A stretch of DNA of 64,000 bases, taken from the NCBI RefSeq assembly GCF_020405225.1, contig NZ_CP084472.1, positions 62,001-126,000 on the forward strand, read 5' to 3'. Source of the stretch: Natrinema sp. DC36. GTDB lineage: Archaea; Halobacteriota; Halobacteria; Halobacteriales; Natrialbaceae. The notes beneath the pieces were generated by a model. That model was not told the origin of the DNA. It was given only the letters and a program-made list of their open reading frames with translations, and made no database searches. A program made the translations under genes and the position numbers. This document shows positions 2,469 through 11,991 of the stretch, piece by piece; position 1 is the first letter of the stretch, and each line of letters opens with the position of its first letter.

Positions 2469-2702
2469 CGCCGCCGAGCGCTCGTCCGCGAGTTCGTTCC
2501 GTCACCGTGCATGTATCGGTTCGACACCGCGGACGCATTTCAGTGTAGGCCTTGAAGCGCTCGTTCTCGAGTCACCACGTCGACAGCGAGCCGGTCGGTC
2601 CCGCGGATGCCGCTCTCCGCCGCGTCGGGCCGACGGCGGCAGGTGTCCTGACCGTTGTCTGCAACGACGGCTCTTATTGTCGGGTCGGTGGAACGTATCG
2701 CT

Positions 2703-3755
2703 ATGGGGTCCTCCGAGACCGACGAGGCGCTCGAGTCCTACGGGGCCGATATTGGGACGGAATCGGGGTCCGTGACGCGGTTCCGCGAGTGGTTTCTGGT
2801 CGAGGGCAATCGGTTGACCGTCGCGGCGACGGTTTTGATCGCCATCTTCGTTCTCCTCGTCGGGCTGTACGAACTCGGCGTCATCACCTTCGTCAACCCG
2901 AACTCCGTGACGCGCGTCGCCAGCGGGATGATCGCGGGCACGTTCTCGCTCGTGACGCTGGTCGTCTCGGTCAACCAGCTCATCCTCTCTCAGGAGTTCA
3001 GCGCGGCGGGCAAGGCCCGCAAGCGACTCGACGGGGTCATCGAGTTCCGGCAGGCCGTTGCGGACGACGCGGCCGTTCCCGCGACCCCGGCGTCGCCCAC
3101 GCGGGTGCTCGAGTTGATCGTCGAATCGATCCACCACGACGCTGTCGGGCTCGCCGACGCCGTCGCGACGCACGACGACGAGGAGCTGCGCGAAACGGTC
3201 GTTCGGTACACGAACAGCGTTCAGGAACGGACGGATCGGATCGAGGACCGAATAGGGGACTCCAAATTCGACACGTTCTCGGCCGTTTCGGCGGCGATCA
3301 CGTACGACGAATCCTGGCATCTGTACGTCGGAACGCACCTGCGCGGCGAGTACACGGACTCGCTGTCGCCGGCCGCGATGGAGCAACTCGACGATCTGAT
3401 CGAGTCCCTGGAGCTGTTCCACGTGGCTCGAGAGCAGTTCAAAACGACCTACCTGCAACAGGAGCTCACCCGGTTCTCGCAGCTCACGGTGTACTGTGGC
3501 GTGCCGTCGATCCTGTCGGCGATCCTGATCGGCTTCCTCTACGCCGACGTGACCGGACCGAGCGTCAGCGCCGTCGTGCTCCCCTACGTCGTGAGCGCGT
3601 TGATTCTCATCACGCTCTCGCCGCTCGCCCTGCTCGTCTCCTACATCCTCCGGACGGCGACCATCACGCGCCGGACCGCGTCGGTCGGCCCGATGGTCCC
3701 CCAGAAGGATCCCGATGAGGGGCCGTTCAACGTGAGTCACGGTGACCAGCGATAG
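2703..3755 (+). CDS. multi-pass membrane protein, first of a tandem paralogous pair
   Basis: 350 residues. Two hydrophobic segments near the N-terminus (about 38-62 and 80-100) are followed by a soluble helical region of about 160 residues, then two further segments near the C-terminus (about 262-285 and 295-325). The motif VNQLILSQEF follows the second segment, and the C-terminal segment ends SYILRTATITRRT. The next gene has the same layout and motifs, so the two arose by duplication. The ATG chosen gives MGSSETDEALES. I do not recognise a characterised family. The last bases run into the upstream region of the paralogue. Confidence 0.75.
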   Translation: MGSSETDEALESYGADIGTESGSVTRFREWFLVEGNRLTVAATVLIAIFVLLVGLYELGVITFVNPNSVTRVASGMIAGTFSLVTLVVSVNQLILSQEFSAAGKARKRLDGVIEFRQAVADDAAVPATPASPTRVLELIVESIHHDAVGLADAVATHDDEELRETVVRYTNSVQERTDRIEDRIGDSKFDTFSAVSAAITYDESWHLYVGTHLRGEYTDSLSPAAMEQLDDLIESLELFHVAREQFKTTYLQQELTRFSQLTVYCGVPSILSAILIGFLYADVTGPSVSAVVLPYVVSALILITLSPLALLVSYILRTATITRRTASVGPMVPQKDPDEGPFNVSHGDQR

Positions 3756-3825
3756 CCGCTTTTCGGCCCGTCGCCGCTCGTGCGACACGCTTTTGTCCAC
3801 CGTTGTGGTCGATTCCGATCGCCGG

Positions 3826-4869
3826 ATGGATACTTCGGATTCGAACGTCGACGAGGGCGGCGGATCGAGCGAACACGATCAGTTGAACGGTCCGCGCCTC
3901 TATCTTCTATTGCGTCTGAACCGCTGGCTGTTCACGGGGATCGTGCTCGCGATCGTCTACGGCGTCCTCGTCGGACTCAGCCAGATCGGTCTCACACCGC
4001 TGCGCGTGATCGTCGCGTCCAGCAACGGCACCTTCTGGATCTTCTCGGCGTTCATCGGCGCGATCATCACCGGCACGTCGATCGTCGTCACGATCAATCA
4101 GCTGGTGCTCTCCCAGGAACTCGGCGCGGTCGGCGACCAGCGCGAGCGCATGGAGGAGGCGATGAACTTCCGCCGAGATACCGAGGACAAGCTCAAGGGT
4201 GACGTGACGCCACCGGAGCCCGCGGGGTTCCTCTACGAACTCGTCGACGGAATCGAGGACGAGGCGGCCGACTTCGAGTCGGCGGTGGCAGGAGACACTG
4301 ACCTCAGCGACGATCTTCAGGAACGGATCCGCGACTACGCCGACGACGTAATCGGCAACGCCCGGACGGTCAAGGGCAACCTCGAGGACGCCCAGTTCGG
4401 CACCTTCGAGGTGATCTGGAACGCGCTCGCGTTCAACTACTCCCGGAAGATCTACGATGCCCGCCGGATCCGTGCCGATCACGGCGAGGAGCTTTCGGAC
4501 GAAGCCGACGAGGAGATCGACGAGATGATCACCGTGCTCAAGCTCTTCGGCCCGGCCCGCGAGCACTTCAAGACGCTGTACTTCCAGTGGGAGCTGATCA
4601 ACCTCTCGCGAGCGCTGCTGTACGTGGCGGTGCCGGCGCTGACGGTGATGGGACTCATGTTGATGTACGTCGACGCCAACGCGCTCCCGGGGACGACGCT
4701 GGGGGTCGACAACCTCGTCTGGCTGACCAGCGCGGGCTTCGTCGTCGGTATCGCTCCCTTCGTGATCTTCATCGTCTACATCCTCCGGATCGCGACCGTC
4801 GCCAAGCGGACGCTCGCGATGGGGCCGTTCATCCTCCGGGAGTCCGCGCGCGACGATGATCTCGGGTGA
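3826..4869 (+). CDS. multi-pass membrane protein, second of a tandem paralogous pair
   Basis: 347 residues, starting MDTSDSNVDEGGGSS with a short acidic head. Topology mirrors the gene before it: hydrophobic segments at about 33-55 and 72-92, a helical soluble domain, then segments at about 255-277 and 288-315. Shared landmarks are INQLVLSQEL after segment two, AREHFKTLYFQWELINLS (compare AREQFKTTYLQQELTRFS in the first copy) and VYILRIATVAKRTLAMGP at the end. The copies are clearly diverged, so the duplication is old. The gap to the first copy is 70 bases. Function unknown; a membrane sensor or channel-like role would be speculation. Confidence 0.75.
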   Translation: MDTSDSNVDEGGGSSEHDQLNGPRLYLLLRLNRWLFTGIVLAIVYGVLVGLSQIGLTPLRVIVASSNGTFWIFSAFIGAIITGTSIVVTINQLVLSQELGAVGDQRERMEEAMNFRRDTEDKLKGDVTPPEPAGFLYELVDGIEDEAADFESAVAGDTDLSDDLQERIRDYADDVIGNARTVKGNLEDAQFGTFEVIWNALAFNYSRKIYDARRIRADHGEELSDEADEEIDEMITVLKLFGPAREHFKTLYFQWELINLSRALLYVAVPALTVMGLMLMYVDANALPGTTLGVDNLVWLTSAGFVVGIAPFVIFIVYILRIATVAKRTLAMGPFILRESARDDDLG

Positions 4870-6661: not shown

Positions 6662-7720
6662 TCAGTCGAATTCGGACTCGAGGACGGCACCCGTCCCCGG
6701 CCGCTCGAGGCCGGCGAGGTCGATCCGGCCGTCGGGCATCGGGACGCCGTCGGCGGGGTCGTCGGCCAGCAACAGCGAGCCGTCGAGGTCGGCGTAGTCC
6801 AGCAGCGGCGCGAGGTGACAGGCCGCCGCGATCGAGGCGTCGGATTCGGTCATACAGCCGCACATGACCTCGAGGCCGTGAGCGCGGGCGGCGTGAATCA
6901 TCCGCTTGGCTTCCCCTAGCCCGCCGCATTTCATCAGTTTCAGGTTCGCGATGTCACAGCGGTCGGCGATCCGCGGAATATCCGCGAGCGTCACGCAGGA
7001 CTCGTCGGCGGCGATCGGCAGCGCCGAGTGCTCGGAGACGAACCGGAGCCCCTCGGGGTCTTCCGCGGGGACCGGCTGTTCGACGAACGCGAGGTCGAAC
7101 TCGGCGAGCCGTTCGATCTTCGCGACCGCCTCGCGGGGCGTCCAGGCCTCGTTCGCGTCGACGAACAACCGAACGTCCGGCGCGACCGACCGAATCGTTC
7201 GGATGATCTCGAGATCGCGCTCGGTGCCGAGTTTGACCTTCAGCGTGCCGTACCCGCGTTCGAGCGCCGTCTCGGTCTTCTCGCGCATCGTCTCGAGGTC
7301 GTCGAGGCCGATGGTGTACGACGTCTCGAGCGTCTCCGCCGGATCGAGTCCCCAGTAGCGATACAGTGGGACCTCGAGTCGTTTCGCAACGAGGTCGTGA
7401 AGCGCGATGCTCACCGCGGTACGGGCCGACGGGTTCCGCCGAACGGTCTCGCGCAGCCGCCGTTCGATTCGCTCGAGTTGGTGAGGATCGCCGATGTCCT
7501 CGACGACCGCCAGCAAGTCGGGCAGGACGGCTTCGACCGTGGCGGCGGTCTCGCCGTAGTGAGCGGACGGTGCGGCAGCGCCGATACCAGTTGGGCCGTC
7601 GTCGGCCGCGTCTCCGATCCGGACGAAAACGACCGGTGTCTCGGTCGTCGTCCCGCGGGCGATTCCGAAGGGGTACTCGAGGGGCAGCGAGCGCCGTTCG
7701 AACGAGGTCTCGAGGGCCAT
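6662..7720 (-). CDS. enolase-superfamily epimerase (dipeptide epimerase / DgcA-like)
   Basis: 352 residues of the muconate-lactonizing/dipeptide-epimerase subgroup. The catalytic KxK is K161-V-K163 (LKVKLG), metal ligands are D188 (VDANEAW), E214 (FVEQPVP) and D239 (AADES), and the opposite acid/base is K264 (LKLMKCGG). The N-terminal capping domain ends near residue 110. The family epimerises L-Ala-D/L-Glu-type dipeptides; the bacterial relative DgcA racemises N-acetyl-D-glutamate. The gene starts one base after the stop of the DUF1611 gene, so the two are surely co-translated. All active-site residues are present. The substrate is inferred from context. Confidence 0.85.
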   Translation of the reverse strand: MALETSFERRSLPLEYPFGIARGTTTETPVVFVRIGDAADDGPTGIGAAAPSAHYGETAATVEAVLPDLLAVVEDIGDPHQLERIERRLRETVRRNPSARTAVSIALHDLVAKRLEVPLYRYWGLDPAETLETSYTIGLDDLETMREKTETALERGYGTLKVKLGTERDLEIIRTIRSVAPDVRLFVDANEAWTPREAVAKIERLAEFDLAFVEQPVPAEDPEGLRFVSEHSALPIAADESCVTLADIPRIADRCDIANLKLMKCGGLGEAKRMIHAARAHGLEVMCGCMTESDASIAAACHLAPLLDYADLDGSLLLADDPADGVPMPDGRIDLAGLERPGTGAVLESEFD

Positions 7721-7721
7721 C

Positions 7722-8741
7722 TCAGCAGAGCTCCTCGAGCAACTCGTCGGTCTCGAAGCGGATCACGTCGGTCGCGGGCGCGCCGAGCGCGTCGGCATAC
7801 GCCGCAACTGCTTCGCGGGCGTCCTCGTCGTCCTCGAGAGCGGCGGTGTTTATCGCACCGGCGACGACCCGACTCCCCGCGACCGGTTCGGCGACGCTCT
7901 CGTAGAGATCGACGTAGGTGGGGACCGACGGCAGCGAGAACGACTCGTAGCCGTGGATCGACTCCCGGCCGGCCTCGTGACAGAGCACGAGCGTATCGGC
8001 CATCGACCCGTGGAGGATTCCGAGGGTGACCGGCGAGTACGCCGGGTGGACGATGCTTCCCTGGCCCTCGACGAAGAGGTAGTCGTGCTCGTCGCCCTTT
8101 TCGAGGATCATCTCCTCGACCGCGCCCGCGGTGAAGTCGCTGACGACGCGGTCGATCGGGGTGCCCCAGCCCTCGATCATGATTCCGGTCTGGCCCGTCG
8201 GGATCACGGCTGCGTCGTGGCCGGCCGCGCGGGCGTCGCGGGCTAGTTCCATCGTGGTCGTCATCTTGCCGACCGAGCAGTCGGTGCCGACGGTGAGGAT
8301 CACCTCGGCGGCGACCTCGCTCGCGACGCCCTGGCTGACCGTGAGATCCGCCGGCGGCTTCCGAACGTCTCGAATCTCGCAGTCGTTTTCGGCCGCCAAC
8401 CGGGCGAACTCCTCGTCGTCGGCGAGGAACGTGTGTAGTCCCGAGATCACGTCACAGCCGTCCTCGAGGGCCGTCCGAACGTCTTCGCGCCAGCTCTCGT
8501 CGAAGCCGCCGCCGATCGGGGCGATGCCGATCAGCAGGGCGTCGACGGCGGCCGGTTCGATGTCGGCCATCCCGGCGACGATCGGTGCGTCCTGCACGTC
8601 CGGGACGAAGTCGGAGACGCGTCGACCGCCGTTCTTCCGGTCGAGGACGGCGACGACGTCGTGGTCGGCGTACCGGAGGACGCCGAGGGCGGTCTTGGCC
8701 CGGTCGGGGAACCTCTCGTGGGCGAGGATCGCGATTCGCAT
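7722..8741 (-). CDS. DUF1611 P-loop protein (DgcN-like)
   Basis: 339 residues starting MRIAILAHERFPDRAKTALG. An N-terminal Rossmann-like domain (DAPIVAGMADI, IGIAPIGGGFDESWR) is followed by the P-loop GTDCSVGKMTT at residues 152-162 and the later block VEGQGSIVHPAYSPVTLGI. This is the layout of the DUF1611 family. In marine bacteria a DUF1611 protein, DgcN, is reported to acetylate D-glutamate and to act with the epimerase-family racemase DgcA. Here the partner epimerase gene follows after one base. A divergent MFS gene lies upstream. Family membership is fairly clear; acetyltransferase activity in an archaeon is inference. Confidence 0.8.
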   Translation of the reverse strand: MRIAILAHERFPDRAKTALGVLRYADHDVVAVLDRKNGGRRVSDFVPDVQDAPIVAGMADIEPAAVDALLIGIAPIGGGFDESWREDVRTALEDGCDVISGLHTFLADDEEFARLAAENDCEIRDVRKPPADLTVSQGVASEVAAEVILTVGTDCSVGKMTTTMELARDARAAGHDAAVIPTGQTGIMIEGWGTPIDRVVSDFTAGAVEEMILEKGDEHDYLFVEGQGSIVHPAYSPVTLGILHGSMADTLVLCHEAGRESIHGYESFSLPSVPTYVDLYESVAEPVAGSRVVAGAINTAALEDDEDAREAVAAYADALGAPATDVIRFETDELLEELC

Positions 8742-8866: not shown

Positions 8867-10243
8867 ATGGCGGATCGCTGGCTCGGCGCGTGGGGACTCG
8901 GCTCGGTCGCGTTCGGCGGCGCGTCCCTTCTGGTCCCGCTCTACATCGTGGAACTCGGTGCATCGCCGGTCCAGCTGGGCGTGCTGGCGGCGACGGCCGC
9001 TGGCGTCGCCGCACCCGGGGCGATCGCGTTCGGCCGCCTCGCGAACCGGGTCGCCCACCGCCGATTGCTGGTGCTCGCGACCCTGATCGGCGTCGCGGTT
9101 TCGCTGGCCGCGATCCCCTTTCTCACCTCAATTTCGGCGGTTATCGCCGCGAACGCGGTCCTCTGGTTGTTCGTCTCGTCGATCGGGCCGGTCCTGACAA
9201 TGCTCGTCGTCGACGACGCCCCGGAATCCCAGTGGAGCGAACGGATCGGGCTCGTAAACAAGTATCAGGGCTACGGCTGGGCCGGCGGCCTCGTCATCGG
9301 CACGGTCTGGCCGGCCGTCGGGAGTCGACTGCTCGCGGCCGACGAGATCACGCGGACGCTGTGCTGGGTGCTCGCGGCCTGCGCCGGTATGAGTGCGATC
9401 CTGGCGGCGCGAACACTCCCACGGCCAGAACCGTCGGCTCACGTCACGGACGAGCGCGCTGCTCGTCGGATCGGTCGGCTCCTCGCGAGCTCCAGCCGGG
9501 GCGTCAGAGGGGCCACGGTCTCGTTCTCGCCGACCCGACTCTACTGGTCGACGCGCGGAATCGATCCCCGACGACTCGCGACCCACCTCGAGCCGCCGAT
9601 GGCCACGTACTTCGTCGCCGGGGCGTTCTTCTTTACCGGCTCGGCCGCCTTCTGGGCACCGCTCCCGCTGTTCCTGACCGACGCCGGCTTCGATTCGGGA
9701 CAGGTATTCGCGCTCTATCTGGCCTCGAGCCTCGGCTCCGCGGTCTGTTACGAGGCTGCCGGACGGCTTTCGGGGCGGTACGACGTTCGGCTCCTGCAGA
9801 CCGGCGTCCTCGCCGCGAGAGGAGTGTTGTTCCCGGTAACCGTCGGTGTGGCGGGGCTGGCTGCGACCGTCGCCTTCGGAACCGCCGGTATCGTCCTCGC
9901 CCTTATCGGAATCACGTGGGCGGGGATCGCCGTCATCGGGACGGCGATCGTTACCCGGCTCGCGCCGCCGGGCCTCCGCGGGGAGGTACTCGGGGCCTAC
10001 GTCGCGCTGGGGGCACTGGGCGGCGCGCTCGGCGGCGTCCTCGGCGGGTGGATTGCCACTCTCGGCTACACCGTGGCGTTCGGCGTCGCAGGTGGACTCG
10101 TCCTCCTCGGTGCGGCCCTGGTCGTCTCGCTCGAGGCGCTTTCGGGCGGCGGTCGCGCCGTAACAGCACCGCCGGAACCCGAAGGCGGGGTCGAGACGGT
10201 CGGCGACGAGATCGCGATGCAGGCAGCAAACCGCGAGGAGTAG
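8867..10243 (+). CDS. MFS transporter
   Basis: 458 residues with twelve likely membrane segments, six on each side of a long cytoplasmic loop (about residues 185-245, rich in R and S). The loop between segments 2 and 3 holds GRLANRVAHRRLLVL, a weak form of the MFS motif A (GxxxDRxxRR). The C-terminal half has several Gly-rich helices (YVALGALGGALGGVLGGW). It starts with MADRWLGAWGLG. It is divergent from the DUF1611/epimerase pair, with 125 bases between the starts, so it may import or export their substrate; that link is positional only. Confidence 0.8.
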   Translation: MADRWLGAWGLGSVAFGGASLLVPLYIVELGASPVQLGVLAATAAGVAAPGAIAFGRLANRVAHRRLLVLATLIGVAVSLAAIPFLTSISAVIAANAVLWLFVSSIGPVLTMLVVDDAPESQWSERIGLVNKYQGYGWAGGLVIGTVWPAVGSRLLAADEITRTLCWVLAACAGMSAILAARTLPRPEPSAHVTDERAARRIGRLLASSSRGVRGATVSFSPTRLYWSTRGIDPRRLATHLEPPMATYFVAGAFFFTGSAAFWAPLPLFLTDAGFDSGQVFALYLASSLGSAVCYEAAGRLSGRYDVRLLQTGVLAARGVLFPVTVGVAGLAATVAFGTAGIVLALIGITWAGIAVIGTAIVTRLAPPGLRGEVLGAYVALGALGGALGGVLGGWIATLGYTVAFGVAGGLVLLGAALVVSLEALSGGGRAVTAPPEPEGGVETVGDEIAMQAANREE

Positions 10244-10613: not shown

Positions 10614-11543
10614 TCACAGCACCCGAAGCTCCGTCGTCCAGAACGACCGGACGGCATCCGCGAGCGCCGGCTTCGGATCGCCGGTCGCGTCGACGGCGGC
10701 CGTCGCGGTCGGCTCGAGTCCCGATTCGTCGACGAGCGCGTCGACGGTGCCTCGCTGCCCGACGAGATAGAGCGGCGTGTCGGCCCGTTCGCCCCCCGGT
10801 TCGTACGCCGCCAGCGCGTCGCGACAGCGCTCGAGGTGGTCGTCGATCTGCCCGTCGCGAATCCGCTCGAACCGGGCCTGCGAGAACCCGCCCTTCGAGT
10901 GACTCCCCTTGACGTCGCTCTCGAAGCCCCGGTAGTCGACGCGCTCGTCGTCCTCGTAGACGCCGAGGGCGAACAGATCGGTCCGGACCAGCGCGACCGC
11001 GTGTCGGCCGGTCGGCAGGAACCACTCCCGCTCGAGGGCGAACCGATCGCGCCAGGCCGCGCCGACGCCGGGGGTGATCGGCGGCTCGAGCGTCACGGCG
11101 AGCAATCCGGCGTCGTCGACGCAGCACAGACACGGCGCGGCGTCGTCGACGAGCGCAACTCGATCGCCGAGCACGTCGTCCAGATCCGCACGGACCGATT
11201 CGGGCACCGCGTCGTCCACGCCGGCAGTCAGCGCGCCTTCGGGACCCGTTCGGAGGGACGCCAGCAGGTCGAGGACCGCCTCGAGCCGGGGGCCGCGAAG
11301 CTGGTCGCGGCGTCGGACGGTCAGTTCGGTCTCGTTCGCGTCCACTCGCTCGAGTTCGCCCTCGAGTTGGGCGATCCGATCCTCGAGCCGGTTGATCCGC
11401 TCTTCGGCGTCCTGTCGTGCGGTGGCGGCCTCGGCCCGCCGTTCGGATTCGGCCTCGTAGCGCTTTCGCAACCGCTCGTTTTTCTCTTCGAGTTCGTCGA
11501 TGCGAGCGTTGAGAGAGGTGCGGCCGAGTAACCTATCGAGCAT
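10614..11543 (-). CDS. Vms1/Ankzf1-type (VLRF1) peptidyl-tRNA release factor
   Basis: 309 residues. The first ~70 form a charged coiled coil (RIDELEEKNERLRKRYEAES). The rest is an eRF1-like fold; the signature GSHSKGGFSQARFERIRDGQ at about residues 212-231 matches the VLRF1 loop of Vms1/ANKZF1, whose conserved glutamine (here in FSQ) is needed to release nascent chains from stalled 60S-type subunits. A rescue role in ribosome quality control is therefore expected. The coiled coil may replace the eukaryotic ankyrin and zinc-finger parts. The ATG used gives MLDRLLGRTSLNARI. It is a single-gene unit next to the DUF5802 gene. Confidence 0.8.
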   Translation of the reverse strand: MLDRLLGRTSLNARIDELEEKNERLRKRYEAESERRAEAATARQDAEERINRLEDRIAQLEGELERVDANETELTVRRRDQLRGPRLEAVLDLLASLRTGPEGALTAGVDDAVPESVRADLDDVLGDRVALVDDAAPCLCCVDDAGLLAVTLEPPITPGVGAAWRDRFALEREWFLPTGRHAVALVRTDLFALGVYEDDERVDYRGFESDVKGSHSKGGFSQARFERIRDGQIDDHLERCRDALAAYEPGGERADTPLYLVGQRGTVDALVDESGLEPTATAAVDATGDPKPALADAVRSFWTTELRVL

Positions 11544-11572: not shown

Positions 11573-11965
11573 CTAGGTTCCGGCGCTCGGCGGCTCGTCA
11601 CCGGTCGGCCCCACGTTGTCGGCTCGCAAGCCGCCGGCGAACGAGAGCAGCTGACGGGCGCGCTCGCGCCGGGCCAGAAACACCTCCCGGAGTGAGGGAG
11701 GGTTCCGGACGTCGGTCCCCTCGAGCATCGACTCCGGCAACGCGAGCGTGTTCGCCGGGACGGCGTCCGCTCCGTGAACCGGGAAGTGACTGGTCTCGAG
11801 TTTCATCACCAGCGGCGCGTCGAGTCGCTCGAGGCCGTCGCCGGTAGCGTACACTTCCTCGTTGATGCGTTCGTGCTGGTCGCTGTGCATGAGTGCGTGT
11901 TCCCCGTCCGTCGGGGTCACGTAGAGACGTCCGAGATAATAGCTTCGCGAGAACACCTCGAACAT
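11573..11965 (-). CDS. DUF5802 family protein
   Basis: 130 residues beginning MFEVFSRSYYLGRLYVTP. The conserved pattern RLYVTPxxGxxALMHxxQHExINEEVYATG fits the haloarchaeal DUF5802 family, whose function is not known. A possible ATG 15 bases earlier (MVSITM) is rejected because a TATA box (TTATATCA) lies about 30 bases before the MFEV start, which would place transcription start between the two ATGs. The C-terminal 40 residues are basic and then Gly/Pro-rich, probably disordered. Confidence 0.75.
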   Translation of the reverse strand: MFEVFSRSYYLGRLYVTPTDGEHALMHSDQHERINEEVYATGDGLERLDAPLVMKLETSHFPVHGADAVPANTLALPESMLEGTDVRNPPSLREVFLARRERARQLLSFAGGLRADNVGPTGDEPPSAGT

Positions 11966-11991
11966 GGTAATAGATACCATGGCCCGAAGTG

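Follow-up and report, generated by a model that had tools for sequence, protein, structure and literature searches.

The window considered here, a 64,000-nucleotide stretch of DNA, belongs to a haloarchaeal genome of 5.1 Mb. Within it, a gene for a DUF1611 protein is followed on the same strand by a gene for an enolase-superfamily epimerase, a single base (7721) separating the two (Table 1). Both the open reading frame coordinates and this spacing are exactly as the first-pass annotation had given them, as is the position of a divergent MFS gene, which 125 bp separate from the start codon of the DUF1611 gene. The families that it had recognised, DUF1611 P-loop and enolase superfamily, score far above the Pfam cut-offs, and the full active site that it credited to the epimerase is complete in all catalytic residues. 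Of the named relatives, Natrinema zhouii comes closest, with protein identities of 94% for the DUF1611 protein and 96% for the epimerase.

Table 1. Coordinates of the gene pair and of neighbouring genes in the window.
Feature	Position	Strand	Basis or remark
Membrane-protein gene, first of two adjacent tandem paralogues	2655-3755	+	No Pfam match
Membrane-protein gene, second of two adjacent tandem paralogues	3742-4869	+	
Enolase-superfamily (MLE subgroup) racemase/epimerase, DgcA-like, 352 aa	6662-7720	-	Pfam, NCBIfam, fold match
DUF1611 protein, DgcN-like, 339 aa	7722-8741	-	ATG at 8741; Pfam, NCBIfam, fold match
Divergent MFS transporter gene	8867-10243	+	Pfam MFS_1 PF07690, E=2.3e-27
acVLRF1-type release-factor-like protein (peptidyl-tRNA hydrolase family)	10614-11543	-	PF18859, E=4.1e-38
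DUF5802 protein	11573-11980	-	Conserved block with acVLRF1-type gene

The DUF1611 protein consists of a Rossmann-like N-terminal domain and a P-loop C-terminal domain, and contains both Pfam domains of its family, PF07755 (E=7.4e-74, 247.9 bits, cut-off 25) and PF17396 (E=8.3e-31, 106.6 bits, cut-off 22.6). Its best NCBIfam model is the DgcN equivalog NF041892, at 254.5 bits against a whole-protein cut-off of 480 bits, which leaves it outside the equivalog as curated. The AlphaFold model (mean pLDDT 90) superimposes on the solved structures 2OBN (TM 0.92) and 2G0T, Thermotoga TM0796 (TM 0.85), and also on 7XRJ, titled "N-acetyltransferase DgcN-25328" (TM 0.81, prob 1.00). Among the columns that are invariant in bacterial DgcN, 52 of 79 (66%) are kept in the window protein, compared with 71% in 2OBN and 68% in 2G0T. 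By alignment, those kept include C254-H255, N298-T299 and D325/R328. Ten residues (V151, S156, G228, C254, H255, N298, T299, A308, D325 and R328) are invariant both in bacterial DgcN and in the window's haloarchaeal group, and all ten are missing from a second haloarchaeal DUF1611 subfamily described below. The P-loop reads G152-T-D-C-S-V-G-K159-M160. Dethiobiotin-synthetase-type ATPases have Thr at the position after the P-loop Lys, while in this Walker-A-like loop the residue following GTDCSVGK is Met, the family as a whole having Met, Arg or Lys there. The altered P-loop would fit a non-ATPase role, for example the binding of CoA.

The epimerase is composed of the mandelate racemase/muconate lactonizing domains PF13378 (E=8.5e-44) and PF02746 (E=9.9e-12). 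DgcA (NF042940) is its best NCBIfam model at 249.4 bits, short of the 400-bit whole-protein cut-off, and the L-Ala-D/L-Glu epimerase models NF011708 (195.3 bits, cut-off 343) and NF041118 (172.6 bits, cut-off 500) are likewise not reached. The features expected of an MLE-type enzyme are all found: a KxK motif (K161/K163), the D-E-D metal ligands (D188/E214/D239) and a second catalytic Lys (K264). This catalytic set, together with the D311-x-D313 motif, is invariant in 18 haloarchaeal orthologues. In dipeptide epimerases the DxD motif binds the dipeptide ammonium group. Also invariant in 18 of 18 aligned orthologues is R22, a position kept in bacterial DgcA and aligned with R24 of the E. coli L-Ala-D/L-Glu epimerase (AEE), a residue that contacts the glutamate part of the substrate. 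The AlphaFold model has a mean pLDDT of 91, and its top fold matches are the dipeptide epimerases 3iji/3ijq (TM 0.89, 39-40% identity), crystallised with L-Ala-D-Glu.

Across 292 Halobacteria genomes, DUF1611 is found above the Pfam cut-off in 267 and a match to the DgcN model NF041892 in 266, none of which attains its 480-bit cut-off (best 277.9 bits). Orthologues of the window epimerase (E<=1e-60) occur in 264. Both genes are present in 264 genomes and neither in 26; two genomes (G021, G161) have DUF1611 alone and none has the epimerase alone. At least five genera (g2, g38, g51, g64, g70) contain members that have lost the pair beside others that retain it, which means that co-loss happened more than once. 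The epimerase gene lies directly downstream of the DUF1611 gene, on the same strand, at 79 of the 80 named haloarchaeal loci, the exception (L096) being a contig fragment, and the order dgcN-then-dgcA is also that of the window locus. Presence in about 90% of Halobacteria and this adjacency together mark the pair as a standard, strictly linked haloarchaeal module, and co-conservation with co-loss supports a functional link between the two genes. With so clean a pattern of co-loss, the pair is well suited to genetic work. A mirror-tree correlation of 0.86 (108 pairs), calculated without a species-tree control, is set aside as evidence.

Separated members of the pair are seen at individual loci. 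In G161 a lone dgcN-like gene (L158, G161:C1:758500-766500) has no epimerase within this 8-kb locus and is followed downstream by a TnpB-like (IS200/IS605-type) open reading frame at 2537-3793 of the locus. A Halostella pelagica plasmid (L131, 4971-6008) carries a DUF1611 gene that belongs to the window's group (64% identity) and has no epimerase next to it; it is flanked by nucleoside-hydrolase-like and CoA-transferase-like genes, with an epimerase of the other type about 4 kb away on the opposite strand.

The MFS gene had been suggested as the transporter of the pathway, a suggestion that comparison with relatives does not bear out: a counterpart near the pair is found at just three named loci, all in Natrinema and at a distance of kilobases. 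What N. zhouii has beside its intact dgcNA-like pair is a shortened, frame-broken remnant of the gene (L033:5218-5900). It is a Natrinema-specific neighbour, probably outside the system. An acVLRF1-type orthologue stands upstream on the same strand at most haloarchaeal loci (for example 55 of the 80 named); it is a conserved syntenic neighbour and not part of the proposed pathway. Together with the DUF5802 gene it forms a conserved block upstream of the pair in many haloarchaea, with no known link to D-Glu. Many haloarchaeal loci have relatives of the tandem membrane-protein genes downstream of dgcNA.

A second haloarchaeal DUF1611 subfamily, mostly plasmid-borne, occurs in Haladaptatus, Halorussus, Haloprofundus and Natrononativus and groups with Thermotoga TM0796 in the tree. 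Its loci (L123, L132, L133, L160, L161) share gene order and superfamilies with the window pair. In the three compared (L123, L132, L133), the DUF1611 proteins lack the C254-H255, N298-T299 and D325/R328 motifs. In their epimerases the R22 position is Leu, and the best-fitting model is that of the Thermotoga L-Ala-D/L-Glu epimerase. Genes for D-aminoacylase, a second epimerase, NlpC/P60, a DacB-like carboxypeptidase and peptide ABC transporters lie nearby, a neighbourhood that fits scavenging of peptides with D-residues. Each of these five plasmid operons includes one or two dipeptide epimerases and is a candidate island for the scavenging of D-amino acids or muropeptides. At two further loci (L124, L159) a DUF1611 gene has no adjacent epimerase.

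Taken together, the DgcN-DgcA module of D-glutamate catabolism probably has its haloarchaeal branch in this pair. Yu et al. reportedly describe DgcN as a D-Glu N-acetyltransferase, DgcA as an N-acetyl-D-Glu racemase and both as widespread in Halobacteria. In the proposed pathway, the DUF1611 protein would acetylate the amino group of D-Glu with acetyl-CoA as the presumed donor. The epimerase would then convert N-acetyl-D-Glu to N-acetyl-L-Glu, the likely direction, by abstraction of the alpha-proton and reprotonation, with K163 and K264 as the acid/base pair flanking the substrate and D188/E214/D239 as the ligands of Mg2+. L-Glu could finally be freed by an unlinked deacylase of the M20 type; M20 deacylases are present in the genome. 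The module is weakened by the lack of any deacylase, D-Glu transporter or DgcR-like regulator linked to the pair, by the missed equivalog cut-offs, by the best fold matches of the epimerase, which are dipeptide epimerases, and by its retained DxD motif. Haloarchaea make no murein, so the D-Glu is presumably of bacterial origin, bacterial peptidoglycan being the putative source. Glutamate racemase was considered as another route for D-Glu and rejected, the sole candidate (L144) being of the aspartate/glutamate-racemase type (TIGR00035, 209 bits, over cut-off) and not a clear MurI, with just 20-28 bits to the dedicated glutamate racemase models.

Sequence alone does not tell an N-acetyl-D-Glu racemase from an L-Ala-D/L-Glu epimerase. 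Vibrio DgcA passes the cut-offs for both DgcA (420.9 bits, cut-off 400) and the PRK15129 L-Ala-D/L-Glu epimerase (365.6, cut-off 343), and in the tree YcjG, the L-Ala-D/L-Glu epimerase of E. coli, falls inside the bacterial DgcAs, with the haloarchaeal enzymes outside. The NCBI cut-offs were for that reason dropped as a discriminator, and so was the DxD motif, which is found in both kinds of enzyme. The two curated equivalogs overlap, as the bacterial protein at L127:5771-6760 exceeds both cut-offs. In assigning the window epimerase to DgcA, the weight therefore falls on its obligatory partner, a member of a family with a deposited N-acetyltransferase structure (7XRJ).

This ambiguity leaves room for the main rival reading, scavenging of muropeptides. 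Peptides from bacterial cell walls would then be the substrates of the epimerase, a genuine dipeptide epimerase for L-Ala-D/L-Glu (or X-D-Glu), while the DUF1611 protein would modify or release D-Glu peptides in some other way. The closest solved structures, with their bound L-Ala-D-Glu, the retained DxD motif and the placement of the E. coli enzyme among bacterial DgcAs are all compatible with it, as is the setting of the related DUF1611 subfamily beside NlpC/P60, DacB-like, oligopeptide ABC transporter and D-aminoacylase genes. However, an NlpC/P60 gene was not found in this genome, no conserved peptide transporter or peptidase accompanies the pair, the DgcA score (249 bits) exceeds those of the dipeptide epimerase models (195 and 173), and the strict partner belongs to a family with a deposited N-acetyltransferase. 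We consider this account unlikely.

The same chemistry might also serve another substrate or direction, either as a general N-acyl-amino-acid module (for D-Asp or D-Gln/D-Asn, for example) or in detoxification and salvage of spontaneously racemised residues, instead of growth on D-Glu. Near-universality in Halobacteria, including genomes of 2.3-2.5 Mb, suggests housekeeping over niche nutrition, but an acidic substrate is indicated by R22 and by the overall likeness to relatives that handle Glu; this alternative has a slim chance of being right. The haloarchaeal branch might also have a housekeeping role other than growth on D-Glu, for instance in repairing or salvaging racemised Glu/Asp or in handling peptides that contain D-Glu, with the P-loop (Walker-A Thr/Ser replaced by Met/Arg) performing an undescribed ligation or acylation chemistry. 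Resting on scores far below the bacterial equivalog cut-offs and on near-universality even in reduced genomes, this proposal is quite unlikely to hold.

For the D-glutamate module, what the first-pass annotation had called a DgcN/DgcA-like pair stands with respect to pairing, linkage and a plausible D-Glu role, through the 7XRJ fold match, the best models and the residues, while membership of the NCBI equivalogs does not, their cut-offs being missed; the name DgcN/DgcA-like is reasonable. Such a module would link the turnover of D-amino acids in brines with two genes that about nine in ten haloarchaea carry.

Among known systems, the closest solved DUF1611 structure is that of the cyanobacterial protein Ava_3511 (2OBN, 40-41% identity), whose entry title gives no function, and the closest solved relative of the epimerase is the Bacteroides thetaiotaomicron dipeptide epimerase (3iji/3ijl/3ijq), which has Thr in place of R22. 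Bacterial DgcN (NF041892, 7XRJ) shares with the window protein the two-domain DUF1611 fold, the P-loop GTDCSVGK, the TGQTG, EGQG, LCHE, NT and DPxR motifs and a gene position directly upstream of a DgcA-like gene. Identity is 35%, the window N-terminal domain is divergent and longer, and, unlike bacterial DgcN, the window pair has no linked LysR regulator or transporter. On Klebsiella and Pantoea plasmids (L125, L128), dgcN-dgcA is followed by glutathione/peptide-type ABC transporter genes, the Klebsiella copy lying near copper-resistance genes. DgcA (NF042940) belongs to the superfamily of the window epimerase and has the same catalytic residues, R22 and DxD, at 31-36% identity, the window enzyme falling outside the group of bacterial DgcA and E. 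coli YcjG. DgcN-DgcA has independently been treated as a D-Glu route in Shewanella (PMC10845958). The pair had been put forward as a candidate for a little-described pathway in an archaeon, a view at odds with its presence in about 90% of Halobacteria and with the title of Yu et al. (2023, ISME J 17:537; ref. 27 in PMC12363236), which already names halophilic archaea for this pathway. Since the 292 genomes hold no haloarchaeal protein above the bacterial cut-off, that title most likely refers, for halophilic archaea, to DgcN proteins of the window's group. The pair is an ordinary, already reported haloarchaeal module rather than a new one.
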